Positions 540 through 63,800 of a DNA stretch of 64,000 nucleotides are shown one piece after another. The notes under the pieces are model-generated. The model was not told the DNA's origin and made no database searches. It saw nothing but the letters and a program-made list of their open reading frames with translations. Position numbers and translations under genes: made by a program. Every line of letters starts with the position of its first letter. The first letter of the stretch is position 1. This DNA comes from Limnomonas spitsbergensis (lineage: Eukaryota; Chlorophyta; Chlorophyceae; Chlamydomonadales): the NCBI GenBank assembly GCA_037349105.1, contig JAYJMM010000100.1, forward strand, positions 1,855,001 to 1,919,000, read 5' to 3'.

Positions 540-979
540 GTTCACACCCATCATGTATCCCCCCCTTACCCCACACACAATCTAAACCCCACCCCCGTTC
601 ACACCTGGCACTCGTATCCTCCCATAGCCAGGAGAGAGCGTTGGGCACCTATCACCCACACCCTGTTCACACCCGTTATTGCCCCCCTCCTTACCCCACA
701 CACAATCTAAACCCCACCCCCGTTCACACCTGGCACTCGTATCCTCCCATAGCCAGGAGAGAGCGTTGGACACCTATCACTCACACCCTGTTCACACCCG
801 TTATTGCCCCCCTCCTTACCCCACACACAATCTAAACCCCACCCCCGTTCACACCTGGCACTCGTATCCTCCCATAGCCAGGAGAGAGCGTTGGACACCT
901 ATCACTCACACCCTGTTCACACCCGTTATTGCCCCCCTCCTTACCCCACACACAATCTAAACCCCACCCCCATTCACAC
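540..979 (-). repeat. exon-end array, 125-bp unit, 3 extra copies (cyclase, exon 980-1088)
   Basis: The 3' end of the exon with its donor (minus strand CTCCTGGCTATGGGAGGATA then CGAGTGCCAG|GTGTGA) recurs around 850, 725 and 600, period 125 bp. Copies keep GGYECQ, the exon itself has GGYEWQ. Bases 1-540 hold telomere-like words and nothing else I can support. Confidence 0.85.
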
Positions 980-3900
980 CTGCCACTCGTATCCTCCCAT
1001 AGCCAGGAGAGAGCGTCGGACCGTGTCGTTGTACACCTCAAGGACGTCCCTCGCCAGAGGCCGGTCAACCGCCCGCATGTCAGAGTACCTAAATCAGGGT
1101 TAAGCGTGAAGGCTTTAGTTTTGTTTGCTTAGGGGCTTAGGGTGAAGGGTTCAAACTAAGGGTTTTAAGCAGACAGTCAATAGCTAGAGGGCCTAGATGA
1201 GGGTTAAGTATAAAGGCTTGAAAAGATATACAACACAAGTTTGCATGCCAGAGTGCCTTGTTTGATGTCAAGGGTAAGGACGTGGACGGTAAGCAGAAGT
1301 GTGGTGATGAATCCATGACACAAACAACTGAACCCTGAACCCAGTAGGTGTGACGAAACATGGGGATTATCTACTTGTCAACTTCTCAAACAATGAAACA
1401 ACTGGTCCCTGGCCATGGTTAGTTCCGAAAAAGTTTGAACAAGCATCACTCATCCACTGTACAAACAACTGAACCCTACACCATGGTACATTACAAACCG
1501 TGTGAATGCGGCTCACACGTCCTTGCCAGGTGTGCATGAGTGTGAGGGTCACTCACTTGTCCATGGCACAGAATACCAGCGTTACTTACGGATAGCCCCG
1601 TTTGCCAATGTGGTTCATGGACCCGAGCGGGGCCAGCGCCGTCGCGGGTGCGTCCAAGTAGCCGGGCGTCAGCTGCTGGCAGCGGTCCAGGCGGGGCAGG
1701 AAGCGCGCCCGCTCCTCCAGACCCGGCACACGCACCTGATAGCGGCAGGAGGGAGTGGGAGATGGGAGTAGCAGGGTGGGAGGAGGCTCGCCCGCTCCTC
1801 CAGCCCAGACACAAGCACCTGATAGTGGATGGAGGGAGTGGGAGGTGGGAGGAGCAGGGTGGGAGGAAGCGCACCCGCTCCTCCAGCCCAGACACAAGCA
1901 CCTGATTGTGGAGGGAGGAAGTGGGAGGAGGGGAGTGGGAGGTGAGAGGAGCAGGGTGGGAGGAAGCGCACCCGCTCCTCCAGACCAGACACAAACACCT
2001 GATAGTGGCGGGAGGGAGTGGGAGGTGGGATGAGCAGGGTGGGAGGAGCAGGGTGGGAGGGAGTGGGAGGTGGGATGAGCAGGCGGGGTAACAAGCGCGC
2101 CCACTCATCCAGCCCAGGCACGAGCAACTGGCAGAGCGGCGGGAGATGGATGCCGTGGCAAAAGTCGGTTTTCAAGTACAGAGCAGGAAACGTGTCGCGC
2201 TGCTTGGCCTTGTCCAGCATGCTGATTTTTTTTTGCTGCATTTTGTTGCATGGTGGGCCTCTGCTCCTTCCATCCTGGGCTGGAGCAGGCAGGGCCCTCC
2301 TCCGGCCCAGGTATATGAGCAGGTTGAGCACCTAATAGCCATCATGGGCAGTCTCATCGCCTCTCCCCACTAGTATAAATCGGTTTTAGTCTCAGGCGAT
2401 CCACATCATACCTTAGTACTCCCAGTGACTACTTCCACACTGGATTTCAAATATGTTCCCAAGTACTCCCAGTGACTACTTCCACACTGGATTTCAAATA
2501 TGTTCCCAAGTACTCCCAGTGACTACTTCCACACTGGATTTCAAATATGTTCCCAAGTACTCCCAGTGACTACTTCCACACTGGATTTCAAATATGTCCC
2601 CAAGTACTTCCAGTGACTACTTCCACACTGGATTTCAAATATGTTCCCAAGTACTCCCAGTGACTACTTCCACACTGGATTTCAAATATTATAAAGACTT
2701 GCCCCCCCTATGCCCCCCCCCCATTTTTAATGTTTTTTTAATGTTTTTTTTTATTGAATTACGGTATTTAAATTTATTAACAAATTAATACCAGTACCGT
2801 AAAACACTGTTTCCAAGTTAATTTGTAAACCGGTAATTTATTAATTATAAAAATTAAAATACCCATACGAGCTTCCACACGTCTCTTACCTGCATGATGT
2901 CACTGTACTCCCGGTGGCCGCCCCCACAGTGGATCTCAAACGTCCCGCAGTCAACCACCTGCAAGCATGAACGCCAGGACATCAGAATGAAGACACAGAC
3001 ATCAGCATCGCAACACCAGCATCAACATCTCATCCTCATCGAAACAACATGTTCATCAACGTAGCGGTGGCATCGATTGTGAAACACCAACATCAGCATC
3101 GTAACACCAGCATCAGCATGACAACACCAGCATCAGCATCTCATCCTCATGGCAACAACATGTTCATCAACGTAGCGGTGGCGTCGATTTCGTAACACCA
3201 GCATCAGCATCGCAGCAACAGCACCAGCTTTGTTATGGCACCACCACTGCCTGCAAAGCAACACCAGCAACAGTGCCAGCAATGCTATGCAACACCAGCA
3301 ACAGTGCCAGCAATGCAATGCAACACCAGCAACAGTGCCAGCAATGCAACGCAACACCAGCAACAGTGCCAGCAATGCAATGCAACACCAGCAACAGTGC
3401 CAGCAATGCAATGCAACACCAGCAACAGTGCCAGCAATGCAACGCAACACCAGCAACAGTGCCAGCAATGCAATGCAACACAAGCAACAGTGCCAGCAAT
3501 GCAATGCAACAACAGCAACAGTGCCAGCAATGCAATACAACACCAGCAACAGTGCCAGCAATGCAACGCAACACCAGCAACAGTGCCAGCAATGCAATGC
3601 AACACCAGCAACAGTGCCAGCAATGCAATGCAACAACAGCAACAGTGCCAGCAATGCAATGCAACACCAGCAACAGTGCCAGCAATGCAACGCAACACCA
3701 CCAACAGTGCCAGCAATGCAACGCAACACCAGCAACAGTGCCAGCAATGCAATGCAACACCAGCAACAGTGCCAGCAATGCTATGCAACACCAGCAACAG
3801 TGCCAGCAATGCAATGCAACACCAGCAACAGTGCCAGCAATTCAACGCAACACCAGCAACAGTGCCAGCAATGCAATGCAACACCAGCAACAGTGCCAGC

Positions 3901-5980
3901 AATGCAATGCAACACCAGCAACAGTGCCAGCAATGCAACGCAACAACAGCAACAGTGCCAGCAATGCAATGCAACACCAGCAACAGTGCCAGCAATGCAA
4001 CGCAACACCAGCAACAGTGCCAGCAATGCAATGCAACACAAGCAACAGTGCTAGCAATGCAACGCAACACCAGCAACAGTGCCAGCAATGCAACGCAACA
4101 CCAGCAACAGTGCCAGCAATGCAATGCAACACCAGCAACAGTGTCAGCAATGCAACGCAACACCAGCAACAGTGCCAGCAATGCAATGCAACACCAGCAA
4201 CAGTGCCAGCAATGCAATGCAACACCAGCAACAGTGCCAGCAATGCAACGCAACACCAGCAACAGTGCCAGCAATGCAACGCAACACCAGCAACAGTGCC
4301 AGCAATGCAATGCAACACCAGCAACTGTGCCAGCAATGCAACGCAATACCAGCAACAGTGCCAGCAATGCAATGCAACACCAGCAACAGTGCCAGCAATG
4401 CAATGCAACACCAGCAACAGTGCCAGCAATGCAATGCAACACCAACAACAGTGCCAGCAATGCAATGCAACACCAGCAACAGTGCCAGCAATGCAATGCA
4501 ACACCAGCAACAGTGCCAGCAATGCAATGCAACACCAGCAACTGTGCCAGCAATGCAACGCAACACCAGCAACAGCACCACCAGCTTAACGAATGAGCAG
4601 GAGCACACACCTGTACAGCAGGTTCCCACACATGTACAGCTGGACCCCACACCTGTACCGCTGGAGCCCACACCTGTACATCAGGGGCCCACACCTGTAC
4701 AGCTGGAGAGTGGTAAATCCTGGCCTTGAACATGTCCGTGGCTCTCTGCGCTAGCTCCATGTCATGAACCACCTGAAGAATCATAAGGGGTGCATGAAGA
4801 GAGGGATGGAGTGGGGGGGCAAAGGGTGACAAAGTGGTTGTGAAGGTTAGATGGCACAGTAGGGAAGAGGAATAGGCAGGCCGACACTACTGACCGGTTG
4901 GTGCCGCTGCTCGCCCGACCGGCCCGGTGGCTCCACCCCAGGTCCTGCGCTCCACACGGGCTTCAGGGCGACAGAAACCAAGTCCAGAAGCGGCTCCGAG
5001 CCCTCTGTCTCAACGATCCCCGCTAGCTCGGCAAGGGCCAGACTGCTGGAAGTCCCCGCTGCCGCCGCCGCAGCGGCCAGGGTCGAGGTTGCGGATGAAA
5101 CGGGCGTGTGTGCTACGATGCCACCGCTGCACTGCGTGGAGTCTGCGCTCGTGACGCACTCCGGTGAGTCTACCAGCCAGCGACCGTCATGCCAGGTTCC
5201 CGCGGCGGGGGCAGCGGCGGCCGCGGAAGCGCCGGAACGGGAGTGTGGTCCGGGTTTAGGGGATCCCCTCTGTTGCTGCTGCGTGTATCGGGGCAGGGCG
5301 GGGCAGACCGGTGAGGTATACAAAAGCTCTACTGAATATTCGAACTCCTATACCTGACAGCCTGGCATCGTGACGTGCTCCTGCACAAGCCCCATGAATA
5401 TGCGATAATTAAAAACACAGTGCGGTACGGCACACTTAGGTAACTGTACGGATATGGTACGGTAAAAAAAAATACTGCACAAGTACGGTTCCTACTGAAA
5501 CGGGATGACCATACTCTTCTCGTGCAGGGAAGGAGAGATTATGGGAGGCGTACCCCTGTCAGCCCACCCGGATCCAGAAGGACAGACCATGAAACCTCAA
5601 CCCTTAATTCCTCCCTACTCCTCCCCCCTTTTAATCACTCTCCCCTCACCCAACCACCCCTCACCATCCCGTCCCCCCTCCTCCTCCTCACCCACAGCCC
5701 CACTCCCTCTGGTGCGACCCAGGTCTGGACGGCACCGTTTTCTAGGGCGGAGGGGTCAGGGGACGGGATGGGACAAACAGAGGAAGCGACAATCATTTAC
5801 CCTAAAACCTGGGGGAAATTAACTCAAAAATATTTTGTCTACCGGTAGGTGAAACTAAAAAACTACCGGTAAAATTGGCTTCCGGAGGCCCCCCCCTCTC
5901 ACCGATCCGGCCCGGGTCCAGAAGGAGCCACTTTCATCATAGTGGCTGTGAAACTTCCGGAACGAGGACGAGATCGCGCC
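980..5980 (-). CDS. class III nucleotide cyclase-like gene, C-terminal half (partial, continues past left edge)
   Basis: Not a single open frame. Six exons join in consistent phase on the minus strand: 5980-5903, 5269-4895 (its start is uncertain), 4772-4695, 2958-2890, 1735-1590 and 1088-980, together 855 nt or 285 codons. Most boundaries are CAG|GT type. In order they carry HDMELAQRATDMFKARIY, GTFEIHCGGGHREYSDIMQ, VPGLEERARFLPRL followed by LTPGYLDAP, and MRAVDRPLARDVLEVYNDT ending in RRSLLAMGGYEWQ. This order matches my recollection of the large volvocine adenylate/guanylate cyclases, where a cyclase core is followed by a VPGLE..R..LP linker and a second, degenerate cyclase half with a GGYECQ word. 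The 4895-5269 exon is Ala/Ser/Gly-rich and looks like a loop insertion. The catalytic Asp-bearing part is not seen, so the 5' end is missing or undetected. A following exon near 20-129 (GSLIAVEADQYEIS) is possible but weak. The nearest other gene is a cyclase paralogue, head-to-head. Family call is fairly sure; activity is unknown. Confidence 0.72.
1736..2135 (-). repeat. exon-start array, 82-98 bp units, 4 extra copies (cyclase, exon 1590-1735)
   Basis: Each copy repeats the acceptor CAG and the first 40 bp of the exon, translating as VSGLEERVRFLP or VPGLDEWARLLP beside the true VPGLEERARFLP. Copies lie upstream in the transcript, in the intron. Confidence 0.88.
2415..2693 (-). repeat. 47-bp array of 6 copies derived from cyclase exon 2890-2958
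   Basis: Each unit reads on the minus strand as FEIQCGSSHWEY, against FEIHCGGGHREY in the exon. The unit length is not a multiple of three, so the array is not coding. Confidence 0.82.
3240..4590. repeat. 31-bp minisatellite, about 43 copies
   Basis: Unit GCCAGCAATGCAATGCAACACCAGCAACAGT. Because 31 is not divisible by three and the unit lacks stops, all three frames stay open on the plus strand and also on the minus strand, giving several 200-500 codon frames. Intron of the cyclase gene at 0.98-5.98 kb; not a gene. Confidence 0.93.
4600..4694 (-). repeat. 21-bp exon-end/donor array, 4 copies (cyclase, exon 4695-4772)
   Basis: The exon end CCAGCTGTACAG|GTGTGGG repeats every 21 bp, so four decoy donors follow the real one. 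Confidence 0.82.
5540..5595 (-). repeat. single copy of a cyclase exon end (exon 5903-5980)
   Basis: Minus strand TCCTTCTGGATCCGGGTGGG repeats the exon end TCCTTCTGGACCCGGGCCGG, about 320 bp downstream of it in the transcript. Confidence 0.6.
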
Positions 5981-6109
5981 CTGCGGGACAAGGCATTTAT
6001 TTTCATATGCTGCAGGTCTACCTGGACTTATCTTGGATTGACCATGGATTTACCTTAGGTTTCCCTTTGAATCCCTTCGATTTACCTGGATTTACTTGGG
6101 TCCATCTTA

Positions 6110-6742: not shown

Positions 6743-9700
6743 GACGGTTCCACTGACAGGGACCGTAACCCAATGGGCCTGCCATGGTACGGCGCACTTG
6801 CGATTGGGTTGGGCCTGCTGGTCTTGCTGCTACTGGCAATTGCTTTCTTCTGGCGCCGCTGGGCCCCCCAGGTGGGAATTGTGGGTGGATGTGTTAGATC
6901 GGACAGGTAGGGGGGGGGTAGGGTTTAGATTGTATTATTGAGGATAGGGTTACGGTTTGGGGTTGATATTGTCTTGGCTTGGGTTGAGGGTTTAGATTGC
7001 ATTCCTCAAGAGGGGGGAAGCGTCGATATTATATTCGTCAAGGTCAAGGGCTTATACCTGATTACTGATGTGGAGATGGGGTATATTAAGCACTCCGGGG
7101 TGGTGGGGGGGGGGGGGATCATGGTAGCACAATCCGGCTGAACCTGTGCCATATCGAGCTGTATCGTGCGGTATCATGGCACTTTGGTAGTACAATCCGG
7201 CCGAACCTGTGCCGTATTGTGCCGTATCATGCCGTATCGTGCGACCATGGGAGAGATTAGGTTCATCAGGTGGGTTTGGGGTTAATTGTAATACACAGGT
7301 GAGCACTTTGGGTCCCGTTTTTTAATTGGATTCCTCATGTGAGGGTTGAGGTTGAGATTCGGTTGATCAGGTTGGGTTCGGGGTTTACATGGGATTGATG
7401 TGGTGACGGTGCAGGGTTCAGGTCCTGTATTGGACTCGCTTGGCGGGGCTGGCGGCGCGGTCTACGGGCAGCCTTCCTCCGGGGCGGTTAGAAAGAAAGA
7501 AAGAAAACTAAGCCCTATTAGGGCGTGGAGGTTAAGGAAACAGCGCAGCATGGGGCCGAAGCCACATCCGCGCCGTTACTCGTACTCATGGTGTTCGTAT
7601 ATCCTTTAGTGCTGTATCTCGCCCTCCCTTCCCCTCCCCTCCTCTCCTCACCCTGCTGAGCAGTTTGAGGCCTACCGGGCCCTAGCAGCCCAGAAGCAGC
7701 CACCGCCGAGCATCCAGACGTTCCTGATTGATTTTCTTGGCTGCCACTTTGCCCCTCCCGCTCCTCCCCTCCCTGCTGAATAGTTTGAGGCGTACAGGGC
7801 CCTAGCGGCCAAGAAGCAGCCACCGGGCATACAATCACCGGACAGACCTGTCACACTGGTGCTGACGGACGTAGAGGGCAGCACAGAGCTGTGGTGGGTG
7901 TGGTCACATGTGTTCACACGAATGGGGTGGTGGGTTCACACGTGTTCACACTAATGGGGTGGTGTGGTTCCACGTGTTCACACTAATGGGATGGTTTGGC
8001 CACAATGGTTCACAGCTTTGTGGATGGCCACACATGTTCACACACATGTGGTGGTATGGTCACACATGTTCACACACATGTGGTGGTGTGGTCACTCTGG
8101 TGTAAACGGATGCGCATGCCAGCACTGAGCTGTGGTTGGTGTGGTCAGACTAGTCCACACATGTGTGGAGGAAAGCACTGCTGTAGTGGGTGTGTCACTC
8201 TTGGTCACTATATTTATTACACCAATATAGAGGTCAGCACCTTTGTTTTATACATTAATTTCGATCGCGTACAACACTTGTGTCACTCTGATTCAGATGG
8301 ATTTGCACATCCCCTTTTGTTTTTGCGCTGACTCACCGTCCTGCGTTTTGTGTGTGCAGGGAGTGGGACACAGAGATCATGGCCCTGGCGATCGACATGC
8401 ACGACAGGTGAGGTCCCCTACTTGTTTTTAGATGCTTCAGCTACAATGTTTCAAACATTCAGCTCAAATATAGCTACAATTCAGCTACAATTCAGCCGCG
8501 CCACTTCCCGGCATTTCCCAGCGGGAATGTGTGCCACTAGTTATGGTGCTTCGGCCAATTGGCAGTTGCCTGGAAGAGGCTCGGTGCCCGGTGGCCCGGT
8601 GCTGGCTACCCAGCGGCCTGATTAAGGTGGTTCCGATTCGCTTAAAGATGAGCACAGGTGATTGTGTTTGTGCGGGCGGGGTATTTGTGCGTGTAGGAAG
8701 GTGGGGGAGAAAATTAGGAAATAATTCTTTTTTAAATGGAAAAAAACTTGTAAATTTTAATAACAAGATAATGTTCATAAAACAATTTAAAGGCTGTGAA
8801 GCTGGATAAGCTCAAGTTTATGAAAACAAACGAAATCCTCTTTGGTATCCCCATTCTGCCAAGCCACTGAGCTTGCATGCTGTCCCTCGCCCAGGATAAT
8901 GCGGGACTGCATGAGCAAGCACTTTGGATACGAGGTAAGGCACGGTTCACACTTTTACACTTGTTTGTTCAAGGTGTGACCCTCGTCACACTTTTTGCGA
9001 AGATTAAGGTGGAACCTTGACCACACGTTTGGTAAGTTGGAGTGTGAGGTGATACACTTATCATACTATTTGTTCTGTACGTATGAGGGGAGACCGATAT
9101 CACTATTTTTGTTTTTTTGAATGTGACGTGAGCCGCTGATCTCACTCTTCGTGTACATTGGGAGTGAGACACGGCCCAGACCATTGCGGGGCCTTAAACC
9201 CTGTCTGCATCTTTGCACCCTAAACCCTGAACCCTAAACCCCCATGCACAGGTCATGACGGAGGGAGATGCATTCCTTATCAGGTGGGGCTGAAAGGGGT
9301 GTGTGGTATCAAGGGTTCAGGGTTTATGGATAAGTGAAATACCAGGGTTGATGATGTAGGGTTTAGGGTTTAGGTTAAAACCTCAGCGCCTGGCAATGTA
9401 CCTCGGATGTGCGTTGCCTACCCTTGCAATTAACGCTGTTAAGGGTTTTGAGGGTGCCTTTGGTAATCATCGCATACACCAGTTTTCAGCCGGAAACACA
9501 ACGCAGTCTGACTGACCCTAAACCCTGGCATTTTCGACCCTGTCATTCATAACCCTGAACCACTGTTGAACCTTAACCCTGAACCCTGATATGTCGCTGC
9601 AGCTTCCACGATCCCTTTGACGCCCTGGCCTGGTGCCTGGCCGCACAGCTGGCGCTGCAGAGTGGGTGCATAGAGTGTGTGTATGTGTGTGTGTGGAGGG

Positions 9701-12700
9701 GGGGGGGGGGCTCAAAATGAGGGGGGATGGGTGTGGGAGGGCTTGCGTGAAGGGGAAATCAGTGGTGGTGGGACTTACTGAAGAGAAAACCGGACTGTGG
9801 TTGACGGGAAACCGACAGATTTGAACCCATAAAAGCCAAGGGCTCGCTGCTTAGCAGCGAAAAGATGGATCACGTCCATAGACCTGATGAAGAGGGGCAC
9901 CCAACCTAAGACCTTAACCCTAAACGACGGGTAGATAGGATGCGGTGCAGAACCTGGACCTTCAACTATTGCCCATGTCATGATATGTGGTGTAAACGCT
10001 GAACCCTAAACTGTTAATTGCCTAGCCTATACCCTGATTTCTAAACCATAAATCCCTTTATCTCCCCCCCCCCTCCCCCCCCATTTCTCTTGATTCATGT
10101 ACATTGCTACTGGCCGGGCCAGCAGCTGAGGCGCCACAAACCCTGAGATGCCAACCCTCCCCCCCCTCCTAACTTGTCCATGCTTGTATATTGTGGCCGG
10201 TGTTTACAGCGCGGCGCGGATGTGGCTACGGCCCCAAGCTGCGCTGTTTAGCCCTATAGGAAGAAGCTTTATTCCTTTCTGTGACTGGCTGGATGAGCAG
10301 GTGAAGAGCTTTTGACCCTGAACCCTGAAACGCTTAACCTCATCCCCGAATCTTCTCCCCATCCCCTGGATAGTTCTTAGATTGCGACTGGCTGGATAAG
10401 CTGCTGCACCACCGCAAACACTGAACCACTTACCCTCCCTCCCCCCTACCTTGTCCATGTTTTTATTTTGTGACTGGCCGGATGAGCTGCTGCAGAACTA
10501 TTGACCCTGAAGCGCTTAACCTCATCCCCAAACCTTCCCCCCACCCCCTTGATGAATTTTAGATTGTGACTGGCCGGATGAGCTGCTGCAGCACCGCAAG
10601 GCCGGAATCCACACTGTGAGTGGGTTAAGGATGGAGGGGTTTTGGAGATCCGTACTGCTAGAGGGTAAAGGGTGTTTGGAAAACCACGTCGTGAGCAGGT
10701 CAAGGGTTCATCATGGGTGGGAATCCGCAGTGCTTGTGTGGTTTAACGGTTTAACGGGTCTAAGGAATATATGACCATCCTGAGCTCAGGGCCAGGCGCT
10801 GGCCAGGGCGTGTGGCGGTGCCCACACAAGCTCTTGAAAATAATTTTAGTAGACGATGTTACGACATTGAGAACACGATGTTACGACAACTCAATGCTTC
10901 AGGCGGGAGGAGGTTGCGCATAATCAGGCATCTTGATTTACGTTTATGGTAACGGCGCGGATGTGGCTACGGCCCCAAGCTGCGCTGTTTCCTGAACCTC
11001 CACGCCCTTCTGGGGTGTAGCTTTCTTTCTTTCTTTCTTAGGAGACAGGCCAGCAAGGCGCTGTAATCCTGAATTGAAATGCACTGTTTGCGTGCTGCAG
11101 GTCCGCGGTATGGAGCTAGCGCAGGGTCAGGCGCTAGCGGGGGGGCAGCAAGGCGCTGCAATCCTGAATTGGAATGTACAGCCCATGCCGCGCTGTTTCC
11201 TTAACCCTCACGCCCCTGTGGGGCGTGGTTTTCTTTCCTTCTTTCGTTCTGGAATGTACTGTCTGCATGCTGCAGGTCCGCGGTATGGAGCTAGCGCAGG
11301 GACAGGCGCTGGCGGGTGGCCAGGAGCTGCTGGACGTCGCGCCCCTGTTGGACACTGACATAGGCCTGACGGGCCACATGCTGGCGGAGGCCTACTCTGG
11401 CTTTGAGTCGTTCGAAGTGATCGGGTGCGTGCTCAGTATCAAGTGTCTAGGGTTTAAGGTATGTGTCGAGGTTTAAGGGTTTAGAATGGAGATGTGGGCA
11501 ATGCTGAGGGGGTGTGGGTTTGGGATTGAGTTTTTAGGGTTCAGGTTGTGTAATAGCCGAATGTGGAGGTTTAAGGTTGGGTGTGTCTTGAGGGTGGAGG
11601 GGTATGGAGGGGTATGAGCTGACTCCTGAGGGGTGGGGTGTGTGCTGTGGGTTTAGGTTTGGTGTGTGCTGAGGGTTTGGGTCGGTTTGTGCTGAAGGTC
11701 GAGGTTTGAGGGACGATGCTTGATGAGGTTGTAGGTTGAGTTAGGGTTTAGGGTTTAGGGTACAAGCAGGTGGTGTTGGGGTACAAGCAGGTGGTGTTGG
11801 GGTACAAGCAGGTGGTGTTGGGGTACAAGCAGGTGGTGTTGGGGTTTAGTCTGGCGCGTGGTGGTAAAACCCTAAACCCGAGGGTGACGACAAATCCATG
11901 AATACCATATATCAATATAACAATCGAGACGGTGCAAGGCTGTTGAGTCCTGGCAGGTGTGCTATTCGATACCAATCATTGCTGTGTCAAATTTGAAGAT
12001 TTACTACGCCCCTGTCAAGTGTGGGGGGGGTGGGGTGGGGGATGGGGGAGGCGCTGACTCATCACACTCTTGCTTTTGGAGAATTGTGTAGGATGGTGCA
12101 TCATTCCGCTGGTCATTCGTATATTCCTAACTGCTATCCTCGAGGTCAATTTGGGTCCCAGACGGCACCCCAAAAATGCCCTCCACTTTGTGGAGGAGCT
12201 TTTTTGGTAACCCCCACGCTTTAGAGAATAAGCGGGCTACCATCTGATACACAAATTGTTTTTTTATTTTATTCGAGACATGTGTTTAACTTCTTTTAGT
12301 ATATTTATAGCTACTATTCGTATATTTCTAACTAAAGGCAATATTTAATCATGCTCACATGTCTTTTACACGATCAATTTTCAAAATAACTGTGGTTCCC
12401 TTCATACCATACCAGTGGACATGCCGTAAAGCACGAAAAGCCCCAATGTTAACCCGCGAGTCCGTTAAACAAAAACATGACCATTGAGTTGTTGCATGTG
12501 CAGTGACCGCTCCGGGCCATCCAACGGTCACGAGCTGTTCTACGACCCCAGGAAAGCATGCGGAAAAAGGTTTGTAAAAACTGCGATATAATCATAAGAA
12601 GTAAAAACTGTGATATAATCATATAAATAAAAAAATAAACAATACCGAGGTTTGGATTAAGGAAGCCACCCGTTCGGCCGTCGCACTCGGTAGGCTGCCC

Positions 12701-13073
12701 TGTGACACCAAAGACAACGGGGAGAAATGTCATAAAAACATAATATGAGTACTTAACCGAGGGCTCAGTACCTGATGCCCTGGTTTGGGTGTTTGTTTTG
12801 ATGGTTTAGGGTTAAGGTTGGCTGCCCCCCTTAACTCAAAGCGCACAGACCAGGCAACCCGCCCCCCGCATATAATTCTTATTGTATCTGATTGTATACC
12901 GGTATATCGGGGTTAGGATTAGGGTTTAGGTTAGGGTTTAGGCTAACGTTAAACCGTATATCGGGTTTCCTTGTCCCACCATCCTGATGCATATTGTTCC
13001 CTCAGGGATGGACGCGGCCAAGGTAACTGCACTGATTGGGACCGGTTCTCACGATTGGGCATCATCTTCAGAG
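6743..13073 (+). CDS. membrane-anchored class III adenylate/guanylate cyclase (both ends uncertain)
   Basis: Eleven exons join in phase: 6743-6871, 7415-7486, 7784-7893, 8360-8407, 8895-8934, 9252-9283, 9603-9661, 10563-10615, 11276-11424, 12504-12569 and 13006-13073 (826 nt). Exon 1 encodes one membrane segment, YGALAIGLGLLVLLLLAIAF, followed by basic WRRW. Exons 3-6 carry the cyclase core: VTLVLTDVEGSTELW (metal Asp about residue 96), then FGYEVMTEGDAFLI (second metal Asp about residue 139). The 43-residue spacing fits class III cyclases, which make cAMP or cGMP from ATP or GTP. Exon 7 has FHDPFDALAWCLAAQLALQ and exon 8 has DWPDELLQHR, both usual downstream elements. I did not find the canonical RVRMGVH block or the Asn/Arg transition-state pair, so the core may be incomplete or an exon was missed. 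Substrate cannot be told. The first exon may start at the ATG at 6773 or belong to a longer protein. Micro-exons of 32-68 nt are typical here. Confidence 0.82.
7487..7586 (-). mobile_element. short SINE-like element with TTTC tail, inserted at a 5' splice site
   Basis: Read on the minus strand it starts GGCGCGGATGTGGCTTCGGC and ends in TTTCTTTCTTTCTTTC. Other copies lie at 10205, 10953, 11180 and 20000. GTTA flanks both sides (7487-7490 and after 7582), a possible short target duplication that also duplicates the GT of the cyclase exon ending at 7486. Confidence 0.68.
7640..7783 (+). repeat. exon-start duplication, 120-bp unit (cyclase exon 7784-7893)
   Basis: GAGCAG|TTTGAGGCCTACCGGGCC at 7664 repeats the acceptor and first 60 bp of the exon at 7784 (FEAYRALAAQKQPP against FEAYRALAAKKQPP). 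Only the second copy continues into the LTDVEGST motif. Confidence 0.88.
7894..8200 (+). repeat. exon-end copies and about 38-bp CACATGTGGTGG repeats
   Basis: CAGCACTGAGCTGTGGTTGG at 8120 and AAAGCACTGCTGTAGTGGGT at 8173 echo the exon end CAGCACAGAGCTGTG|GTGGGT. Between lie several TGGTCACACATGTTCACACA units. Confidence 0.68.
10205..10268 (+). mobile_element. SINE-like element, degraded copy
   Basis: GGCGCGGATGTGGCTACGGC is followed by CCCAAGCTGCGCTGTTTAGC and a decayed pyrimidine tail. It lies just upstream of the exon-edge copies of cyclase exon 8. Confidence 0.6.
10269..10562 (+). repeat. exon-start array, 90-107 bp units, 3 extra copies (cyclase exon 10563-10615)
   Basis: TGACTGGCTGGATGAGC or close variants at 10275, 10383 and 10477 precede the exon copy at 10567 that continues into HRKAGIHT. 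Confidence 0.85.
10953..11040 (+). mobile_element. SINE-like element with TTTC tail
   Basis: GGCGCGGATGTGGCTACGGC, then GCTGCGCTGTTTCCTGAACC, a CACGCCC..GGGGTGT hairpin and four TTTC units. Same family as the copies at 7487, 11180 and 20000; intronic in the cyclase gene. Confidence 0.7.
11041..11275 (+). repeat. exon-start duplication (cyclase exon 11276-11424), split by a SINE-like insert
   Basis: GTGCTGCAG|GTCCGCGGTATG at 11092 repeats the acceptor and first 50 bp of the exon (GMELAQGQALAG). A weaker third copy is at about 10790. Confidence 0.83.
11180..11249 (+). mobile_element. 5'-truncated SINE-like element with 10-bp target-site duplication
   Basis: TGGAATGTAC at 11170-11179 is repeated exactly at 11250-11259. 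The 70-bp insert starts AGCCCATGCCGCGCTGTTTC, holds the hairpin CGCCCCTGTGGGGCG and ends in TTTCTTTCCTTCTTTCG. Loss of the 5' part, the simple tail and the duplication point to retroposition. Confidence 0.8.
11752..11850. repeat. 21-bp minisatellite, 4 copies
   Basis: Unit GGGTACAAGCAGGTGGTGTTG, nearly identical copies, between TTTAGGG words. Intronic. Confidence 0.9.
12137..12205 (+). mobile_element. structured dispersed repeat (LINE/SINE end-like), copy 1
   Basis: CTCGAGGTCAATTTGGGTCC and CAGACGG are followed by the hairpin CCCTCCACTTTGTGGAGGAG. The same words recur near 53505-53640. It is intronic in the cyclase gene. Confidence 0.5.
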
Positions 13074-14872
13074 GTAATGCCGAACAATGGGGGGGGGGGA
13101 CTTAAGCAGGGTCTTTTTCAGTTTCAGCAGCTACACGCCATCATACCTTAGCAAACAATGCATTATTCAAGATGAATTGAAACTTTGCATATCAGATGAG
13201 GAGGCTGAACTCGCATTACATGATCAGGTTAAAAAACTAAAAAAACTAAAAAAACTGTAGATGGTACGATCAGGTACTGAGGTACGGTCTTGGAATATGG
13301 TGAATTGTGAGGATTTTTTTTCATCTGAAGAGTGCTGCACACATGCCATAAATGAAAGTCCAGCAATCCTGAGATTCTGAAATGTGCACTGATCCTGGTA
13401 TGGGTGATTGTCATGAAGGTTTTATAGCCTATGCTACAACCTCACTGTGCTGACTGACAGCATGCACCAAGAATTTGCGATTGCACAGCCCATAGTCATA
13501 GTATTGCTGTGCCCATACTGGTCAGTATCAACAATCCTGTGAATCAGAGATGTGCACTGACCCCTGGCATGGAAGGCTATCATGAAGGTGTCAATGACGT
13601 TACACCAATGCTGGCACAGCTCAAAAGGCTCGGCCGCGTCTGCGCCCAACTGTCCGGTTGGGGGGAAAGAAAAATTAAGGCAGACAAGGCAATGAAAGAA
13701 AGGAGCACAAAAGAGAGGGGAGCCCCTACAAAAAATGAAAGGCAAATGAAAGATGTCCCCAGCCCCTCTTTAGTGAAAATGAACGAGAGGATGAATAATG
13801 TCATGAAGGTGTGACAACCTACGTTACGTGTTGGCTGACACAGTGTGGTTGTAACCACAATGTGTTAATTGACACTACACCGTAACAATGGAGGGGCGGG
13901 GGATTATAATGAGCACCAGGCACCCCAAACCCACCAGCTTTGAACATTGCAACAGCGCGAGCCGCCATGCTATATGTCACAGAGCCCATGCTTGCAGGAG
14001 GGAGTCCATGCATGCTACGCGTGTCCATGCGGGGAGTCCATGCAGGGAGGGGCACTCCCACGCACCCCTATGCACTTGCATGCACCAAACGAGGACCGAG
14101 TGCCAGAAAATAACTGCATGCACGTTATAATTGGTAGGAGGCCCCATGCTTGCAATGCAATGAGCAACGAGATGCGGGCAGGAGCAATGATCGTGCCATG
14201 TGTGTTCAACTGATAACAGCAGAATCTGAACTCAGCGGCATGCATCTTCAGCCGTTCCAAGGAGGACTGCAAGAACTTAACATCTGGGCTGCTGGGGAAT
14301 GAGTTCTACCAGGTCATTATCGTTATGTTCTAGCACATTCATGCCATGTAGCGAAATCTGCCATCCAGTAGCTATCTGCAGGAGGGGGTCAAAGAAAGAG
14401 GTAGGGCTTCCTTCAATTAATCGTTCATGATAAGTCTGTATAGAGAAAAGCAATGTGGGCCAGGCGACGCTTACGGATTGCTTACGGCGCGGGTAGGTTC
14501 GATCGTATGAAGTCGAAGCTAATGCAACTATAAAAGGGCAGAGCTGTGTGAGTGTGTGTGCTTCCTGAATTCAAAACATGCAGAGGCCCTGCTTTTATCC
14601 ATCCCGTCAAATAAAATCTTCGGTGGGCATGGGCACCAGGGGACTGCAAGAAACTTCTGGTGTGCAAAGGAGAGACCGAGGACATTGGCGAGATAGGCTG
14701 TTCCTTTCTGCTGTTGGTAATGCTCTTTTGGTGAACATACGTGGTAAATCAGCGCTAGATTGACGATTGTTGGTTTTTCGGTTGCCTCCACCATTGATGC
14801 AGATTTCAAACAGTCTGGACAGGTGGACGACGCTAGCAATTCAACGACGCAGACTACAACGAACCCGACAAG
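13074..14872. other. no supported gene; local repeats and upstream region of the augmin-like gene
   Basis: About 13340-13860 holds three diverged copies (period 165-230 bp) of a segment with CATGAAGGTGT and GATGTGCACTGA. The AATGACGTTACACC word is at 13593. The rest is ordinary-looking spacer with CATGCA words. The end of the cyclase gene should lie here but no further exon is convincing. Confidence 0.6.
14529..14536 (+). promoter_or_regulatory. candidate TATA box upstream of the augmin-like gene
   Basis: The sequence CTATAAAAGGGC lies about 340 bp upstream of the ATG at 14873, in the non-coding stretch between the cyclase and the augmin-like gene. It matches the TATA consensus and has the right strand. 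Distance to the transcription start is unknown, so this is a weak call. Confidence 0.35.
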
Positions 14873-25191: not shown

Positions 25192-26250
25192 AGTGGGCAG
25201 GCAGGGGGCGGGGTCAGACCGAGAGGTACAGACTTGTCAGCGCTGTCCCTCACATTGATGTTCCGTTTTTTCATATTTTCACTAGGTGACTCAAGACCGG
25301 TACGTAGAGACAAGGTCACTTTTCCAGATTTGTATTCACGAGGTAACAAACAAAAGACCGGTTTATAGAAAAAGGGGGGGGGGGGCGGCGACGGCGATAT
25401 CTTGCTACTTGCACGTCGAACACGGCCATTTTCGCTGTGTGGAAGCAGATGGTGCACTTAGTGTGGCAAAGTGGGCGCTTTCAACAGCTAAGAGATCTGG
25501 AGATGCACTTGTGCTCACCATGGGCCGCAATCTTTACCAGTGGCGTTCAATGAACCACACTCAATTAAACCAAGGGTGTAGTCCAACCCTGCGTACAAAT
25601 CCAGGGATCCCGGATCCAGCGGTACCTCGCAAATGATAGGTTGTGTTCTAGGGTTTTTAATTGGATCCACTGCCGAGGGGGGGCAAAAAGTTAAATTAAA
25701 TTCCCCATCCCCCAAATGTATAGAGCTATACAGATCTGATCTTTAAATTGTTCTTGGCCTAGAGGAGGGGTCGAAAAGGGTCAGAAAAGCTGGGGGGGGG
25801 TAGACTGGAGGTTCACCCCAAAATGAAAATTTTAGAAAACATTGCCAACTATTAATCTAGGCATCAGATTGAGAATATAACAACACCTTTGCATTCCCCC
25901 CGTCAATATGGCATGCCTTGTTGGCATTGCCTGGCATGCCATATTGACATGAGGGGATAGGGGGCACCTCCGAAAACACACGTATCGGTACTACTGTTTA
26001 ATTGTTCATTACTTTTCATCGGATTCAGGTGCCAAAGAAAGCAGTATGCGGTATATGACATACGCTCTGGATGATAATAAGACACCCACCAGCAGGGTAA
26101 ATCAAAGAAGGACAGGCGATATGCAAGTAGGTGGACCGCTGCACCCACCAGCAGGGTAAAGTATATAAGGGCAGGCGGCCAGGCGTTGTGCACCACTGCA
26201 CCCATCGGATGGGTATTGGGTACAGTAAATAAGGGCATGCGCTCTGCAAG
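25192..26250. other. no supported gene; 3' flank of the augmin-like gene and LINE downstream flank
   Basis: Mixed unique sequence with a G-run at 25373-25386. ACCCACCAGCAGGGTAAA occurs twice (26087, 26145). The LINE linker frame fades out at about 26270 and no reverse transcriptase motif follows on the minus strand. Confidence 0.55.
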
Positions 26251-26269
26251 TGTGTCAATGACGTTATTC

Positions 26270-28445: not shown

Positions 28446-28593
28446 CTTGCTGGGCTACCCTAAACTCTTGTTGGGCTGCCCTTCCAGAAAAACTGAAATC
28501 AGGCCTGATAGGACTTAGAAACAAAACATTAAAAAAACAACCTTTTCCGCTTGCCCTTCGTCTTCCACTTCCGCTTGTCCTTCGTCTTCCGCT

Positions 28594-28821
28594 TGCCCTT
28601 CGTCACGTATTGGCCTTATTGCCAATTTTCAACGCCCCATCATTCCAACTGTGTTGGCTCCCGGAGTCCGTTGCCTAGTCCCCGTTGACATCGCCCGCCT
28701 TATTGAGTGTTGTTGGGACCAAGACCCGGCAAAGAGGCCTTCATTCGCGCAATTGAAGGCGAATTTAGAGACATTGTGGCAATTGGAAGCGAACTTTGAG
28801 GCATTGGAAGCGAGGGCTTAG
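28594..28821 (+). pseudogene. orphan protein kinase C-lobe (TKL/tyrosine-kinase-like), rest of the gene absent
   Basis: An open frame ends at TAG 28819-28821 and reads NFQRPIIPTVLAP, PVDIARLIECCWDQDPAKRP, SFAQLKANLETLWQLE. This is the conserved tail of TKL and tyrosine-kinase-like kinases: RP.IP, then LI..CW..DP..RPSF...... The whole N-lobe, the HRD and the DFG motifs are missing; upstream in the same orientation is only Ser/Cys repeat (GCTTGCCCTTCGTCTTCC, three rounds) and then the LINE. Codons are AT-rich at third positions (TTA, TTG, AAT, GAG, CAA), unlike the GC3-rich neighbouring genes. It may be a 3' exon cut off by rearrangement or LINE insertion, a processed fragment, or a transferred piece. 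It is unrelated to the STN8-like gene downstream. Confidence 0.8.
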
Positions 28822-51100: not shown

Positions 51101-54100
51101 ATGTGAAAGCCATGGGAACAGATGAAGGGTGATGGAGGGGTGGAAGGGTCGAAGGGGGAAGGGGTTGAGGTGGAGCGGTGTAAGGGTTGAGGGTGCTGCC
51201 CTGGATACAGGCTTTGAGGGGACGGCCCTCTTTGCCTGTGAGAGGGACGATGCGGAATCCCTCAGAACAGATGAAGGGAGATGGAGGGGTGGAAGGGTCG
51301 AAGGGGGAAGGGGTTGAGGTGGAGCGGTGTAAGGGTTGAGGGTGCTGCCCTGGATACAGGTTTCGAGGGGACGGCCCTCTTTGCCTGAGAGGGGGACGAT
51401 GCGGAATCCCTGAGAACAGATGAAGGGAGATGGAGGGGTGGAAGGGTCGAAGGGGGAAGGGGTTGAGGTGGAGCGGTGGAAGGGTTGAGGGTGCTGCCCT
51501 GGATACAGGCTTTGAGGGGACGGCCCTCTTTGCCTGTGAGGGGGACGATGCGAAAGCCATGGGAACAGATGAAGGGTGATGGAGGGGTGGAAGGGTCGAA
51601 GGGGGAAGGGGTTGAGGTGGAGCGGTGTAAGGGTTGAGGGTGCTGCCCTGGATACAGGCTTTGAGGGGACGGCCCTCTTTGCCTGTGAGGGGGACGATGC
51701 GGAATCCCTCAGAACAGATGAAGGGAGATGGAGGGGTGGAAGGGTCGAAGGGGGAAGGGGTTGAGGTGGAGCGGTGTAAGGGTTGAGGGTGCTGCCCTGG
51801 ATACAGGTTTCGAGGGGACGGCCCTCTTTGCCTGTGAGGGGGACGATGCGGAATCCCTGAGAACAGATGAAGGGAGATGGAGGGGTGGAAGGTTCCAAGG
51901 GAGGAGGGTTGAGGTGGAGGAGTGGAAGGTCGAGGGTGCTGCCCTGGATCCAGCCTTGGAGGAAAGGGCCCTCTTGGTCCTTGAGGGGGGCGATGCGAAA
52001 GCCATAGGAACAGATGAAGGGTGATGGAGGAATGGAGACAGAAGTTTTGTGGTTGAGGGATGGAGGGGTGTTGGGGTGGAGGTATGAAGGGTGGAGGTAG
52101 GGCGGACGGAGGGAGGAGGGAGGAGGTTGAGGGCCCTACCTGCCTCGTCACAGAGGAGACCCTCATGGATGCCCCAAGAACAGATGGGAGTAGAGGAGGA
52201 AGGGGAGCAAGAGGGTATTACGAAACCCTCACCTGTTCCTTAAACACTCACATATTGATTTAACCCTCACCTACACCTTGACCAATCACCTATACCTTAC
52301 ACCCTCGCCCATACCCTAAGCCCTCACATATATCTTGAAACTTCACCTACACCTGAGCCCCCCACCTACACGTTGCACCCTCACCTGCACCTCAAACCCT
52401 TGCCCATACCTTAAACCCTTTAACCTCCACCTACACCTCAAGCCCCCACCTATGTCTTAAACACTCACCTATGCCTTAAACCCCCACACATGCCTTTAAC
52501 CTCCACCTACACCTCAAGACCCCACCTATGCCTTAAACCCTCACCTATGCCTTAAACCCTCACCTATGCTTTAAACCTTCACCTATGCCTTAAACCCTCA
52601 CACATGCCTTAAACCTTCACCTATGCCTTAAACCCTCACAAATGCCTTAAACCCTCACCTACGTCTTATACCCTCACCTATGCCTTAAACCCTCACCTAT
52701 GCCTTTAACCTCCACCTACACCTCAAGACCCCACCTATGCCTTAAACCCTCACCTATGCCTTAAACCCTCCCCTACGCCTTAAACCCTCACCGAAGCCTT
52801 ATACCTTCATCTATGCCTTACACCCTCACCCATGTCTTGAACCCTCACCTGCGCTCTGAGCTTAGCTAGTGTGGCCACGACGGCAGGCAGTACAGATGAC
52901 TGGTCCAAGATGTACACATTCTCCGGGCCGAAGATGCGGCCATGGTACAAGGCCCAATCGGCCAGCAGCTCATCCTCATCCCTAAAAGGAGGGAGATCGG
53001 GGCAGAGGTAGGTATGAACCCTGATGAAAGCATAAACTAACAAACCCTAACGCAGGTATGAATCTGAACAGGGAATACGCGGCAGTGGCACATGACCCAG
53101 TCAGTGAGGGGCACGGCCTCATCCCTAAAATAAAGGTGAGAGAGTGGGGCACAGATTGGTATGAACGCTAATGCAGATATGGACCCTGAACGCAGGTATG
53201 AACCTGAACGGGGGATATGCGACCATGGAACAGCCCAAAGTCATTCAGGAACTCGAGGCGTTCAGGGCAAAGGTAGGTATGAGCAAAAGGACCCAACCAG
53301 CACCCCCCTCGGAGGCGTACTGACGCAAGCGCATGTTCACACTGATAGGGCTACCTCAGCGCAACGACTTGCTTTGAACATGCCCTACCGGTCATGATGA
53401 GATTTCCAGAGGTCCTAGTGGTGGCCGTCCAGCAGCCCCACGAAAGCGGTCTAGGGCATACAGACGTTAACAAAGTCAAGGCCCACCTCCACGCAACATG
53501 TTCTGTTTTCAGTTATCCTGTGTGATCCAATTTGGGAAACAGACGGTAGAGGCGTAGCCCCTTACCGTCTGGGACCCATATTGAGCTCGAGGAGTTACGC
53601 CGCGGCTCCTCCACCGTAGGTGGAGGGCCGCAGGCGGGCCTCCCCGTAGGAAGGTCCCCTGTCTCTGGTTCTGTCTTCCGTGCTTGGTTATGTGTTCAGC
53701 CGTTTTCTCTAGCTGCTTGTTTTGTTTTGTGTCCCGTGTTGCGTGTTTTAGGTTTTCGTTCTTGTAGCTTGTTCCCCCTCTGTTCGCTCTGCCTGGCCCT
53801 TTCGAAAAGGGCAGTGGGTGGTTGCGTCAACTTTGTAACAACAACATGCACATTGTTTGTTGAATAGACAGGGACCCGTGGGTTAGTGGTTGGATGGATA
53901 GCTTGACTGGTTGTCGTTCAAAAAACCGAAACCCTGAACTCTTTAACCCTTGGCTGGTTGCTGGCCACCTGTGGAATGTAAAGAGCTTGAGGCTTGAGGC
54001 ACGCGAGGGGCCTCCGCTGTCGGCAGATGAGGCACCGCCACCACTGCCACTGCCAGCGAACAAAGCAACACCACTGCTGCCAGCCGATGAGGCACGGCCA

Positions 54101-60800: not shown

Positions 60801-63800
60801 CTCTCATGGGGCCTCATAACTGCCTCTCTCTCATGGGGCCTCATGACTGCCTCTCTCTCATGGGGCCTCATAACTGCCTCTCTCTCATGGGGCCTCATAA
60901 CTGCCTCTCTCTCATGGGGCCTCATGACTGCCTCTCTCTCATGGGGCCTCATGACTGCCTCTCTCTCATGGGGCCTCGTGACTGCCTCTCTCTCATGGGG
61001 CCTCATAACTGCCTCTCTCTCATGGGGCCTCATGACTGCCTCTCTCTCATGGGGCCTCATAACTGCCTCTCTCTCATGGGGCCTCATAACTGCCTCTCTC
61101 TCATGGGGCCTCATAACTGCCTCTCTCTCATGGGGCCTCATGACTGCCTCTCTCTCATGGGGCCTCATAACTGCCTCTCTCTCATGGGGCCTCATAACTG
61201 CCTCTCTCTCATGGGGCCTCATGACTGCCTCTCTCTCATGGGGCCTCATGACTGCCTCTCTCTCATGGGGCCTCATAACTGCCTCTCTCTCATGGGGCCT
61301 CATGACTGCCTCTCTCTCATGGGGCCTCATAACTGCCTCTCTCTCATGGGGCCTCATAACTGCCTCTCTCTCATGGGGCCTCATAACTGCCTCTCTCTCA
61401 TGGGGCCTCATAACTGCCTCTCTCTCATGGGGCCTCATGACTGCCTCTCTCTCATGGGGCCACAGGACTGCCCCTTTCTCTTACAAGGGCGCATGTGCGA
61501 GGGCGGGGAGAGAGAGTGGTCTCCTTGTGTGAGCTGTATCCCCTTCTCAACCCTATCCGGCACATCCCACTCCACGGCCCTTATGCTGCACATAGTAATC
61601 ATTCCCCATCTGCTGCGCCCATCACCCCATGCGCTCATCACCCCATGCGCTCATCACCCCATGCGCTCATCACCCCATGCGCCCGTCACACCCATGCGCC
61701 CGTCACCCCATGCACCCATCACCCCATGCGCCCATCACCCCATGCGCCCGTCACCCCATGCGCTTATCACCTCATGCGACCGTCACCCCATGCGCCCGTC
61801 ACACCCATGGGCCCGTCACACCCCATGCGACTGTCACCCCATGCGCTTATCAACCATGCGACCGTCACCCCATGCGCTTATCAACCATGCGACCGTCACC
61901 CCATGCGCTTATCAACCATGCGACCGTCACCCCATGCGCTTATCAACCATGCGACCGTCACCCCATGCGCTTATCAACCATGCGACCGTCACCCCATGCG
62001 CTTATCAACCATGCGACTGTCACCCCATGCGCCTGTCACACCCATGCGCCCGTCACACCCATGCGCCCATCACCCCATGCGCCCTGCCTCTTCTGCCAGG
62101 TTGATGGTCGTGGGTAATGTGCGCCAGCTGGGCGCGTGGCGCCAGTCTCAGGGCGTACCGCTCCTTCCCAGCAGTCAGGACGAGAACATGTACAGCGCAT
62201 CCGTACTGCTGCCTCTGGGGGAGAAGATCGAGGCCAAGGTGTGGGGAGGAAGGGGTGGTGCGTGTGAATCATGTGTGTCTTGTGAACAGGGCTGCTGGTT
62301 CTTCTGCTGAGACCCCTGAATGACGGATATTAGATACGGGTCTAAACCCTCATCCCTAAACCTTGAATGAGGGATATTAGATACGGGTCTAAACCCGCAT
62401 CCCTAAACCTTGAATGAGGGATATTGGATACGGGTCTAAACCCTCATCACTTAACCCTGAATGGTGGATCCTGGTCTTTGCCCTAACACCCAACCCTGAA
62501 TCCTGAATGGTGGACCCTGATCTAATTTGTGTACGTACAGCTGCTTGTGTCCCCTCTTGTCCCACACTTCCATAGCTGACTGCCCCTCACACTTCCATAG
62601 CTGACTGCCCCTCACACTTCCATAGCTGCCCGCCTCTCACACTGGGATAAATCTTCAATGCCTAGCCACCCTTCCTGCTCGTGCAGCTGCCTCCTTTCCC
62701 TGCATGCAAGTGAGACAACTGAGAAACCTAGATGAAAGACTTCAGATGAGACCCTAAATGACAAATCCTCAAATTCAAAAACATAAATAGCATGGTTACC
62801 ATTGTATGGTTACTCTTGTGCAGTTACTCTTGTGTAGTTATTCTTGTGCGGTTACTCTTATGTGAGCAGGTGCTTGCATTCCACGCGAGAGAAAGAGAGA
62901 AATATAAACGATAACGCACAAATGATGGATATTGAACTTGGATGACTAAAGAGCCTGACTATATGTGTACCTGCAGCTGCTTGCGTTCCCTGTGCAAGGC
63001 GAGCCGGTGTGGGAGGCAGGCCCTAACCGCTGTTGGAGCCTGGACCTTCCGGCCGCGCTGGCAGCTGGGAGCAGAGCGGGGACAGCGCAGCAGCAGCAGC
63101 AGCAGCAACAACATGAGAGGGAGGACAGGGCGGAGGAGCCTGGGGGAGGCTTTCTAGTGATGATGCACTGGGGTATGCCTACCGCCGCGACCGAGGCGAT
63201 ATACTTCCCGCCACTGCCGGCAGGTAGGTGGGTGGGCATTGTACAATAACTGGTCACATTTTTGAAAGATTTAGTTGAAAGGTGAAAAGCTCAGCTTAGG
63301 AAGAGTTTCCTGCGCCAGTGCTGTTTAGGGTTTACAGTGTGCACCGGAAAGTACTTTTGGCAGGCCTTGGATCAGCTACCACTGGGTCGAAGGGGACAGA
63401 ACCTTGATCTGGCTGGAGGCGCATGTTGTTTGTTATGTGTTTGGTGCCACAGTGGCGAGTTTAGGGTTGTGGGTTCATAGCAGTTTCTGTAGGGTCACCT
63501 CCACATATTGGCCCCCCTCACCCCGCCCCCTCACTGGCTTTGGTCAAAGATGCGATACGAGCCCCAACTCGCGAATCAAACCAAAAGCCTCAAGCCCTAG
63601 ACCCAAGACAAACCCTAACCCTGAACCACCAAATCACTCCCGTCCACTCCAGGAGCCATGATGGGCTCAGACAACTTGCTAGACCTTGCGGCAGCAGGCG
63701 ACAGCGACGGCAGCATCTATGGCAGCAGCGGCGGTGACGGGAAAGGAAGCACGGACGCCACGACGACCTCAGTGGTCCTTTCTCCAGGAGGCGAGGAGCT

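Follow-up and report, generated by a model that had tools for sequence, protein, structure and literature searches.

Tandem repeats within introns are an established feature of chlamydomonadalean algae. Chlamydomonas reinhardtii and Volvox carteri have their highest tandem-repeat density in introns, more of it toward the intron ends, and the excess is strongest in these algae (PMC3887541). Tandem genomic duplication has also been described as a source of intron gain, in which the duplicate makes a new intron between two AGGT copies (PMC3443670), and the RdRp gene of potato is a case in point (PMC4974935). The human UBC gene carries dual-specific AGGT splice sites in tandem repeats, with many unannotated sites being usable (PMC10809524). 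Here we describe a related pattern in Limnomonas spitsbergensis, in a stretch of 64,000 nucleotides (C100:1855001-1919000, hereafter the window) that is part of a 260.2-Mb assembly in 124 contigs, where exon edges together with their donor or acceptor splice sites are repeated inside the adjacent intron. The pattern is real, has the geometry that a first-pass annotation of this DNA described, and is not peculiar to the window. With a probability of roughly three in four, we read these junction copies as a by-product of local tandem duplication that proceeds at a similar rate in introns and across their borders and survives where the mRNA is left unchanged.

Like the algal intronic minisatellites, the repeats consist of head-to-tail units within introns of a chlamydomonadalean host. 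Unlike the algal survey, whose consulted portion gives motifs by position without an exon edge or splice site in the units (PMC3887541), a copy crossing the splice junction is found here at 56 of 212 junctions (32/106 donors, 24/106 acceptors), and both the integrity of the copied sites, which we call decoys, and the coding outcome of their use are measured in present introns. The likeness to intron gain by tandem duplication is that duplicated exon sequence creates extra splice sites, the difference being that here existing introns grow (PMC3443670). With UBC the window shares rows of equivalent splice sites derived from tandem repeats, whereas the UBC units are coding and variable in monomer number (PMC10809524); the units found here lie in introns, and use of almost any decoy would break the reading frame. 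Among the literature matches listed, in which subscription journals and preprints were largely outside, no title or abstract opening mentions repetition of exon edges with their splice sites along introns at such a scale. Algal intronic tandem repeats and their excess near intron ends are already known, while decoy-bearing exon-edge copies on this scale may be new.

The sample of 106 introns comprises five window genes (26 introns, 52 junctions) and eight genes on eight other contigs. Best supported in the window is an STL1/STN8-type plastid kinase gene (31104..42772, minus strand; ten exons used, nine introns), for which eight of eight homologs yield an identical set of nine introns and protein comparison finds the best match in Chlamydomonas eustigma at 70% identity; introns upstream of 42772, where the homologs are discordant, were dropped. 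An adenylate/guanylate cyclase-like gene (7784..13074, plus strand; nine exons used, eight introns) matches PF00211 over its joined exons (E=5.1e-7), its junctions being taken from its own open frames and GT-AG. The glycosyltransferase-like gene (45277..52980, minus strand; six exons, five introns) has one distant homolog (P0121, 31% identity over 90%), and its junctions were placed without it; its PF13704 match lies under the curated cut-off (21.6 vs 27.5 bits), and one intron with a weak donor was retained in the count. The remaining two are a CBM20-domain gene (PF00686, E=8.1e-16) and gene G1 (0.5-5.3 kb, about 5 kb), which has no Pfam domain match and a model without homology support. Left out before counting were the first intron of the CBM20 gene, the first two of the cyclase and the last two of G1; a further gene at 14.7-25.2 kb, of which three open frames were scanned without a Pfam match, stands outside the junction counts.

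Outside the window, histidinol dehydrogenase (HisD, contig 35) and the OLA1/YchF GTPase (contig 40) came from random stretches and were guided by solved homologs, and six dynein heavy-chain stretches on contigs 75, 120, 122, 123, 86 and 92 were located by family search. The best matches of the dyneins are structure entries 8glv and 7kzm, which we take to be Chlamydomonas entries. Introns were placed with a purpose-written spliced protein-to-DNA aligner, whose guides were the gene's own open frames (cyclase, glycosyltransferase, CBM20, G1 and the dynein stretches DHC19, DHC20 and DHC21b), proteins of other species (STL1, HisD, OLA1, DHC18, DHC21a), or same-genome paralogs (L022 and L023), an intron in the last case needing agreement of at least two of five guides (12 and 8 kept). 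Dynein introns beside micro-exons or weak sites were dropped (4 of 10 in DHC21b, 4 of 18 in DHC19, 4 of 11 in DHC20), as were two in OLA1 that adjoin exons of 12 and 8 bp, respectively. Ab initio gene finding was not used for the larger sample, because repeat arrays yield false exons.

The copy score of a junction is the best match, within the adjacent intron, of a segment spanning it with at least 8 exon and at least 6 intron bases; the null consists of equal-length non-cognate stretches from elsewhere, and a score of at least 28 is called positive. The null maximum stayed below 28 in the window test, and the largest null value on the other contigs was 28. Twenty of the 52 window junctions score at least 28 (10/26 donors, 10/26 acceptors) and 24 reach p<=0.005, which is close to the first-pass count by eye of about 35 in about 80 junctions (44%). 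The positives fall in the kinase (10/18), cyclase (3/16), glycosyltransferase (5/10), CBM20 gene (1/4) and G1 (1/4), and 12 of the 18 kinase junctions have the smallest p attainable in the test. The earlier claim that all six spliced genes are affected holds for the five tested, each with at least one such junction, with the proviso that G1, whose model lacks homology support, is among them. Outside the window, positives number 9/22 in HisD and OLA1, 12/98 in the first four dynein stretches and 15/40 in the last two. Copies are present on seven of these eight contigs, one of which is 9.5 Mb long. Collapsed or expanded repeats could be imagined to have created the pattern during assembly, and a few long near-identical arrays might indeed be miscounted; the copies, however, are about 75% to 100% identical, occur as single duplicates as well as arrays, and are found on the seven other contigs too. 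Since diverged copies cannot be accounted for by misassembly, an artefact of this kind is hardly credible.

Units at junctions measure 21 to 179 bp according to the tandem-repeat finder TRF, in agreement with the 21 to about 180 bp first reported. Of the 1 to about 17 copies given at that time, the multiplicity is borne out and the upper figure is lower here, at 1 to 13 copies per positive junction at the threshold used. Positive junctions increase with intron length, from 0/32 below 250 bp through 3/44 (250-400 bp) and 15/64 (400-600 bp) to 22/42 (600-1000 bp) and 16/30 in longer introns. In the outer-arm dynein alpha-chain gene (contig 122, 64001-74000) no copy was found at any of 30 junctions; its 15 introns used are short (136-371 bp), in contrast to another dynein gene (contig 92, 1152001-1161000) with copies at 12 of 16 junctions. 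The arrangement is also as first described, donor copies lying downstream and acceptor copies upstream: donor-edge copies sit at a median of 0.19 of the intron length and acceptor-edge copies at 0.80, and copies on the wrong side amount to 1/87 and 0/87 (1/174 in total).

Junction copies lie within a much broader field of local duplication. A local copy, no farther than 1.5 kb to either side, exists for 42% of window points, compared with 2/400 for a far-partner null of one 1.5-kb stretch, and twelve 10-kb stretches on 12 other contigs average 39% (range 6% to 100%). Points copied elsewhere in the same intron make up 53% in the window (1313/2463) and 28% in the other introns (1193/4227). The suggestion that most intron length was made in this way is borne out by the 53% for duplication in general and fails for the exon edges themselves, because exon-derived bases in junction-crossing copies account for only 2419 of 24787 intron bp in the window. 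Window junction segments never scored 28 or more against non-cognate stretches, and with the far-partner result this means that introner-like dispersal was not seen within the window; on the evidence of the window, each copy is confined to its own intron.

Across the borders of the 106 introns, duplication coverage is level and then fades within about 80 bp of exon. On the donor side it climbs in 20-bp bins from 80 bp inside the exon to the border (0.02, 0.05, 0.15, 0.24), stands at 0.29 over the first 20 bp of intron and stays between 0.20 and 0.30 out to 300 bp. On the acceptor side it is 0.28-0.39 deeper in the intron, 0.21-0.26 over the last 220 bp and 0.24 at the border, and falls through 0.20, 0.14, 0.06 and 0.01 in the exon. 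Such a profile is what roughly uniform duplication with protected exons is expected to leave, because only units that straddle the border carry exon bases. None of 505 exon points at least 85 bp from the exon ends has a copy in the downstream intron, and the exon reach of the best copy runs from 8 bp, the minimum required, to 82 bp (median 32, n=57). A pile-up of breakpoints at the junction was not found when the exon-side end was measured (7/57 within 12 bp).

These observations can be brought together as follows. Local tandem duplication with units of about 20 to 180 bp, probably by slippage or template switching during repair, would strike introns and their borders alike. A duplication within an exon would alter the protein and be lost, with purifying selection as the presumable filter. 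One that straddles a donor would be harmless if the first donor is still used, leaving its copies downstream in the intron, and one that straddles an acceptor would be harmless if the last acceptor is still used, leaving its copies upstream. Successive rounds would then produce a longer intron with decoy sites left behind. The first-pass suggestion that duplicates persist because they are intronic and spliced out fits well with such a course and appears plausible. If so, intron lengthening gains a concrete route, in which duplication spreads through introns and across borders and exons merely resist. It would also be a caution for genome evolution at large that a striking pattern at functional sites can stem from near-uniform mutation combined with selection.

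The same annotation had further proposed that duplication is targeted to splice sites. The donor-downstream, acceptor-upstream rule by itself needs no targeting, because other placements put the extra copy into the mRNA. The question was approached through junction-versus-interior ratios in three forms, position profiles and simulation, and the outcome varied with the control. The matched control uses the same query geometry at intron positions 60-220 bp from the junction, in introns of at least 200 bp (97/106), and gives copy rates of 0.271 at junctions and 0.196 in near-junction intron, a ratio of 1.39 (95% bootstrap 1.12-1.71). For the strongest copies (threshold 80) the ratio is 0.96 (0.58-1.69). 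The window alone gives 1.14 (0.94-1.38), the first dynein set 1.26 (0.60-2.59), and a set of 79 introns 1.30 (1.04-1.66). Within the window the junction rate of 0.38 compares with interior rates of 0.34 and 0.32 when averaged by intron and 0.50 and 0.46 when counted by base. The crudest interior control (86 introns) gave 1.46 (1.12-1.87), a figure partly inflated by interior points close to the far end, for which not much intron remains to be searched.

Several of these results weigh against duplication at an even rate. The junction excess is small, yet its interval excludes 1, and the ratio rises to 1.59 (1.12-2.22) outside the window and, for HisD and OLA1 with their 11 introns, to 1.88 (1.26-3.04). 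The excess persists at thresholds of 44 and 60 (1.50 and 1.51), disappearing only at 80, and is slightly greater for donors than for acceptors (1.45 vs 1.33). Simulated uniform duplication with protected exons and no indels yields 0.97+-0.13, with 0 of 20 runs reaching 1.39, and a simulation matched in copy number yields 1.00+-0.15 (0/24 runs) where the real value, on a cruder interior control, is 1.45. When indel turnover is added at rising rates the simulated ratio becomes 1.12+-0.15, 1.27+-0.29 and 1.35+-0.36, and 1, 6 and 8 of 20 runs reach the observed value, likely because loss can strike either member of an intron-intron pair but not the exon template; the indel rate is nevertheless an assumed one, and the simulated junction level drops to 0.15, 0.12 and 0.08 against a real 0.27. 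Single-copy duplication alone simulates to about 1.5 and multi-copy duplication to about 1.0, and copy number therefore had to be matched. A first simulation was set aside, its duplication being far too dense.

A true bias of duplication toward exon-intron borders, through repair slippage at R-loops or splicing-coupled breaks and adding a modest excess to the general process, would explain the overall ratio, its values of up to 1.51 at threshold 60 and the higher figures outside the window, as well as the shortfall of the indel-free simulation; the published concentration of tandem repeats near intron ends in Chlamydomonas and Volvox (PMC3887541) points in the same direction. It is at odds with the ratio of 0.96 for the strongest copies, with the window value, whose interval includes 1, and with breakpoints that do not cluster at the junction, and indel turnover by itself gives 1.12-1.35. 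We therefore regard a border bias as rather unlikely, and the proposal of targeting as mostly unsupported: the data can be explained without targeting, which would be weak at most, a bias of up to about 1.7-fold being still compatible with them.

The earlier proposal also named intron growth and sliding through AGGT duplication. A different origin of that type would be the birth of the introns themselves, each arising when an exon piece with an AGGT was duplicated in tandem. Many copied donors do contain the required AG|GT word. Birth of this kind predicts an end-to-end match, either of the end of exon 1 with the intron end or of the intron start with the start of exon 2, and such a match (at least 60% over 30 bp) is present in 0 of 106 introns, which contradicts the idea unless the events are very old. 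As an account of intron birth it has been rejected, and we give it next to no credence.

Local duplication with protected exons would leave rows of decoy splice sites, which the first reading had already noted. The crossing copies could be aligned over the splice site in 121 cases (56 donor, 65 acceptor), and the dinucleotide is kept in 97 of them, as GT or GC in 45 donors and as AG in 52 acceptors. Scored with a matrix built on the 106 introns (donor consensus CAG|GTGAGT), 37 intact decoys equal or exceed the real site (20 donor, 17 acceptor). Only 5 of the 97 would leave an open frame through both flanking exons and the added stretch if used (3/45 donor, 2/52 acceptor). The dinucleotide has not been purged, and its retention does not significantly exceed that of its flanks (donor 0.892 vs 0.860, p=0.47; acceptor 0.892 vs 0.836, p=0.10; Fisher tests on counts rebuilt from proportions). 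Donor decoys with an intact dinucleotide are not favoured at offsets in multiples of three (16, 14, 15); the acceptor figures are 11, 24 and 17.

These figures also bear on the possibility that decoy rows have been selected as a splicing device, serving regulated alternative splicing or the stepwise removal of long introns. The many intact dinucleotides, and decoys as strong as the real site, would be in keeping with such a role. A selected device would not be expected to leave the dinucleotide no better conserved than its surroundings, almost no decoy compatible with open flanking exons and no clear period preference, and many introns carry no junction copy at all, including all 15 tested in the outer-arm dynein gene. 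Selection for splicing is accordingly a very improbable cause, and the decoys are better read as remnants of duplication that the cell likely has to ignore.

A detailed case is STL1 intron 6 (33869-36800), where donor and acceptor copies occupy 33951..36666 on the minus strand. Donor copies lie at offsets +179, +358, +543 and +749, overlapping a TRF array at 36231-36835 with period 179, and these decoys score 10.0, 10.0, 10.0 and 9.8 bits, the real donor 10.0 bits. Thirteen acceptor-edge copies lie between about 35765 and 33951, and 12 of the 13 keep their AG. Eight of eight homologs place the outermost pair, and protein homology more generally implies that the outermost sites would be the ones in use.

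Experiments with duplicated splice sites in competition ask which of several identical tandem sites the spliceosome picks. The introns described here amount to natural constructs of that type, for which homology implies use of the outermost pair and hence of the longest intron. If the protein is made, the spliceosome would have either to join the outermost sites directly or to excise inner decoy introns before it finally joins the outer pair. It is conceivable, although we would sooner doubt it, that splice-site choice is set by position and not by local sequence, the outermost donor and acceptor being joined past decoys that are intact and in many cases identical; STL1 intron 6 has five equivalent donors, the first of which would then be spliced over 2.9 kb to the last of 13 acceptors that keep their AG. 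A normal-sized intron could also be cut between the innermost decoys of this intron, and splicing between decoys may even take place beforehand without being seen, in which case the intron would be taken out from the inside outward. Should that be true, tandem duplication could lengthen introns without a splicing cost.

We judge this question of splice choice to be worth more than the mutational pattern itself. In its duplicated donors and acceptors, some of them equal to the real site, the genome offers a natural library in which the protein tells which one must win, so that choice by local sequence, by distance or by exon recognition becomes testable within one organism. The practical warning is that exon predictors may choose the wrong copy. 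A separate array of a type that could fool such predictors lies at 58553-61480, a 27-bp minisatellite of about 108 copies in which two overlapping frames stay open for 1042 and 1198 codons.

The other copies in the kinase gene, all on the minus strand, show the range of forms. Intron 2 has four donor-edge copies at 40086..40405, spaced about 80-107 bp apart (score 68, null maximum 20), with a TRF array at 40173-40405 of period 107; three of the four decoys score 10.7 bits, the same as the real donor. Intron 8 carries a donor-edge array of period 60 at 32581..32856 (score 44, null maximum 20), which was one of the translated examples in the first-pass annotation; GT is lost in the four crossing copies of the array and kept in two outside it, at about 32973 and about 33051. 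Both edges of intron 9 are copied within 31668..31859, the donor at about 31826-31859 and the acceptor at about 31668-31718 (scores 40 and 80, null maxima 15 and 16). Single edges are repeated in intron 4 (acceptor, AG lost, 37813..37859; score 57, null maximum 27), intron 5 (two acceptor copies, 37024..37148; 42 against 15), intron 1 (donor, 42433..42457; 40 against 19) and intron 7 (donor, 33504..33520; 29 against 20), the last being 17 bp long and the lowest score of the list. Intron 9 also holds, in one array (e.g. 31319-31614), 13 of the 36 occurrences of a telomere-like word, CCCTAAACC, the rest being scattered over the window, where shuffles lead one to expect 0.73 (largest 4).

The cyclase-like gene (plus strand) has a donor-edge copy in intron 1 (8091..8147; score 54, null maximum 20) and acceptor-edge copies in intron 5 (10357..10417, the best of those upstream of the exon at 10563; 72 against 16) and in intron 6 upstream of the exon at 11276 (11078..11148; 107 against 22). 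In the glycosyltransferase-like gene (minus strand), intron 1 contains an acceptor-edge array of period 149 and 13.6 units by TRF (50008..52030; score 119, null maximum 19) together with a donor-edge copy (52321..52358; 32 against 21). The same gene has a weak acceptor-edge copy in intron 3 (47396..47472; 30 against 22) and, in intron 5, a donor-edge copy (46107..46157; 39 against 23) and an acceptor-edge array of period 45 (45440..45938; 39 against 16). The CBM20 gene contributes one acceptor-edge copy on the plus strand (62525..62555, in the intron at 62239-62976; 37 against 27), and G1 one donor-edge copy on the minus strand (4607..4644, in the intron at 2959-4694; 56 against 20), within a TRF array at 4596-4708 of period 21. 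Another example given earlier, the FEIQCGSSHWEY array (2415..2689, minus strand, unit 47 bp, from TRF and sequence reading), does repeat an exon piece; it carries no splice site, because the piece ends about 15 bp short of the donor, and is not counted as junction-crossing.

Local duplication itself is unevenly spread. Within the window, 25300-30900 is nearly free of it (3% of points vs 42% window-wide), and minus-strand frames at about 26.9-27.9 kb resemble, by eye, pieces of an APE-type endonuclease, so that this part may be a recent mobile element. Among the 10-kb stretches elsewhere, the lowest level, 6%, occurs on contig 30 (500001-510000), where long open frames reach 726 codons; one frame has a polysaccharide pyruvyl transferase domain (PF04230, 8.4e-11), three others scanned gave no Pfam match, and the stretch may be an inserted segment of a large virus. 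At the other end, the stretches at 500001-510000 on contigs 75 and 90 have local repeats at 100% and 92% of points and are possibly satellite blocks.

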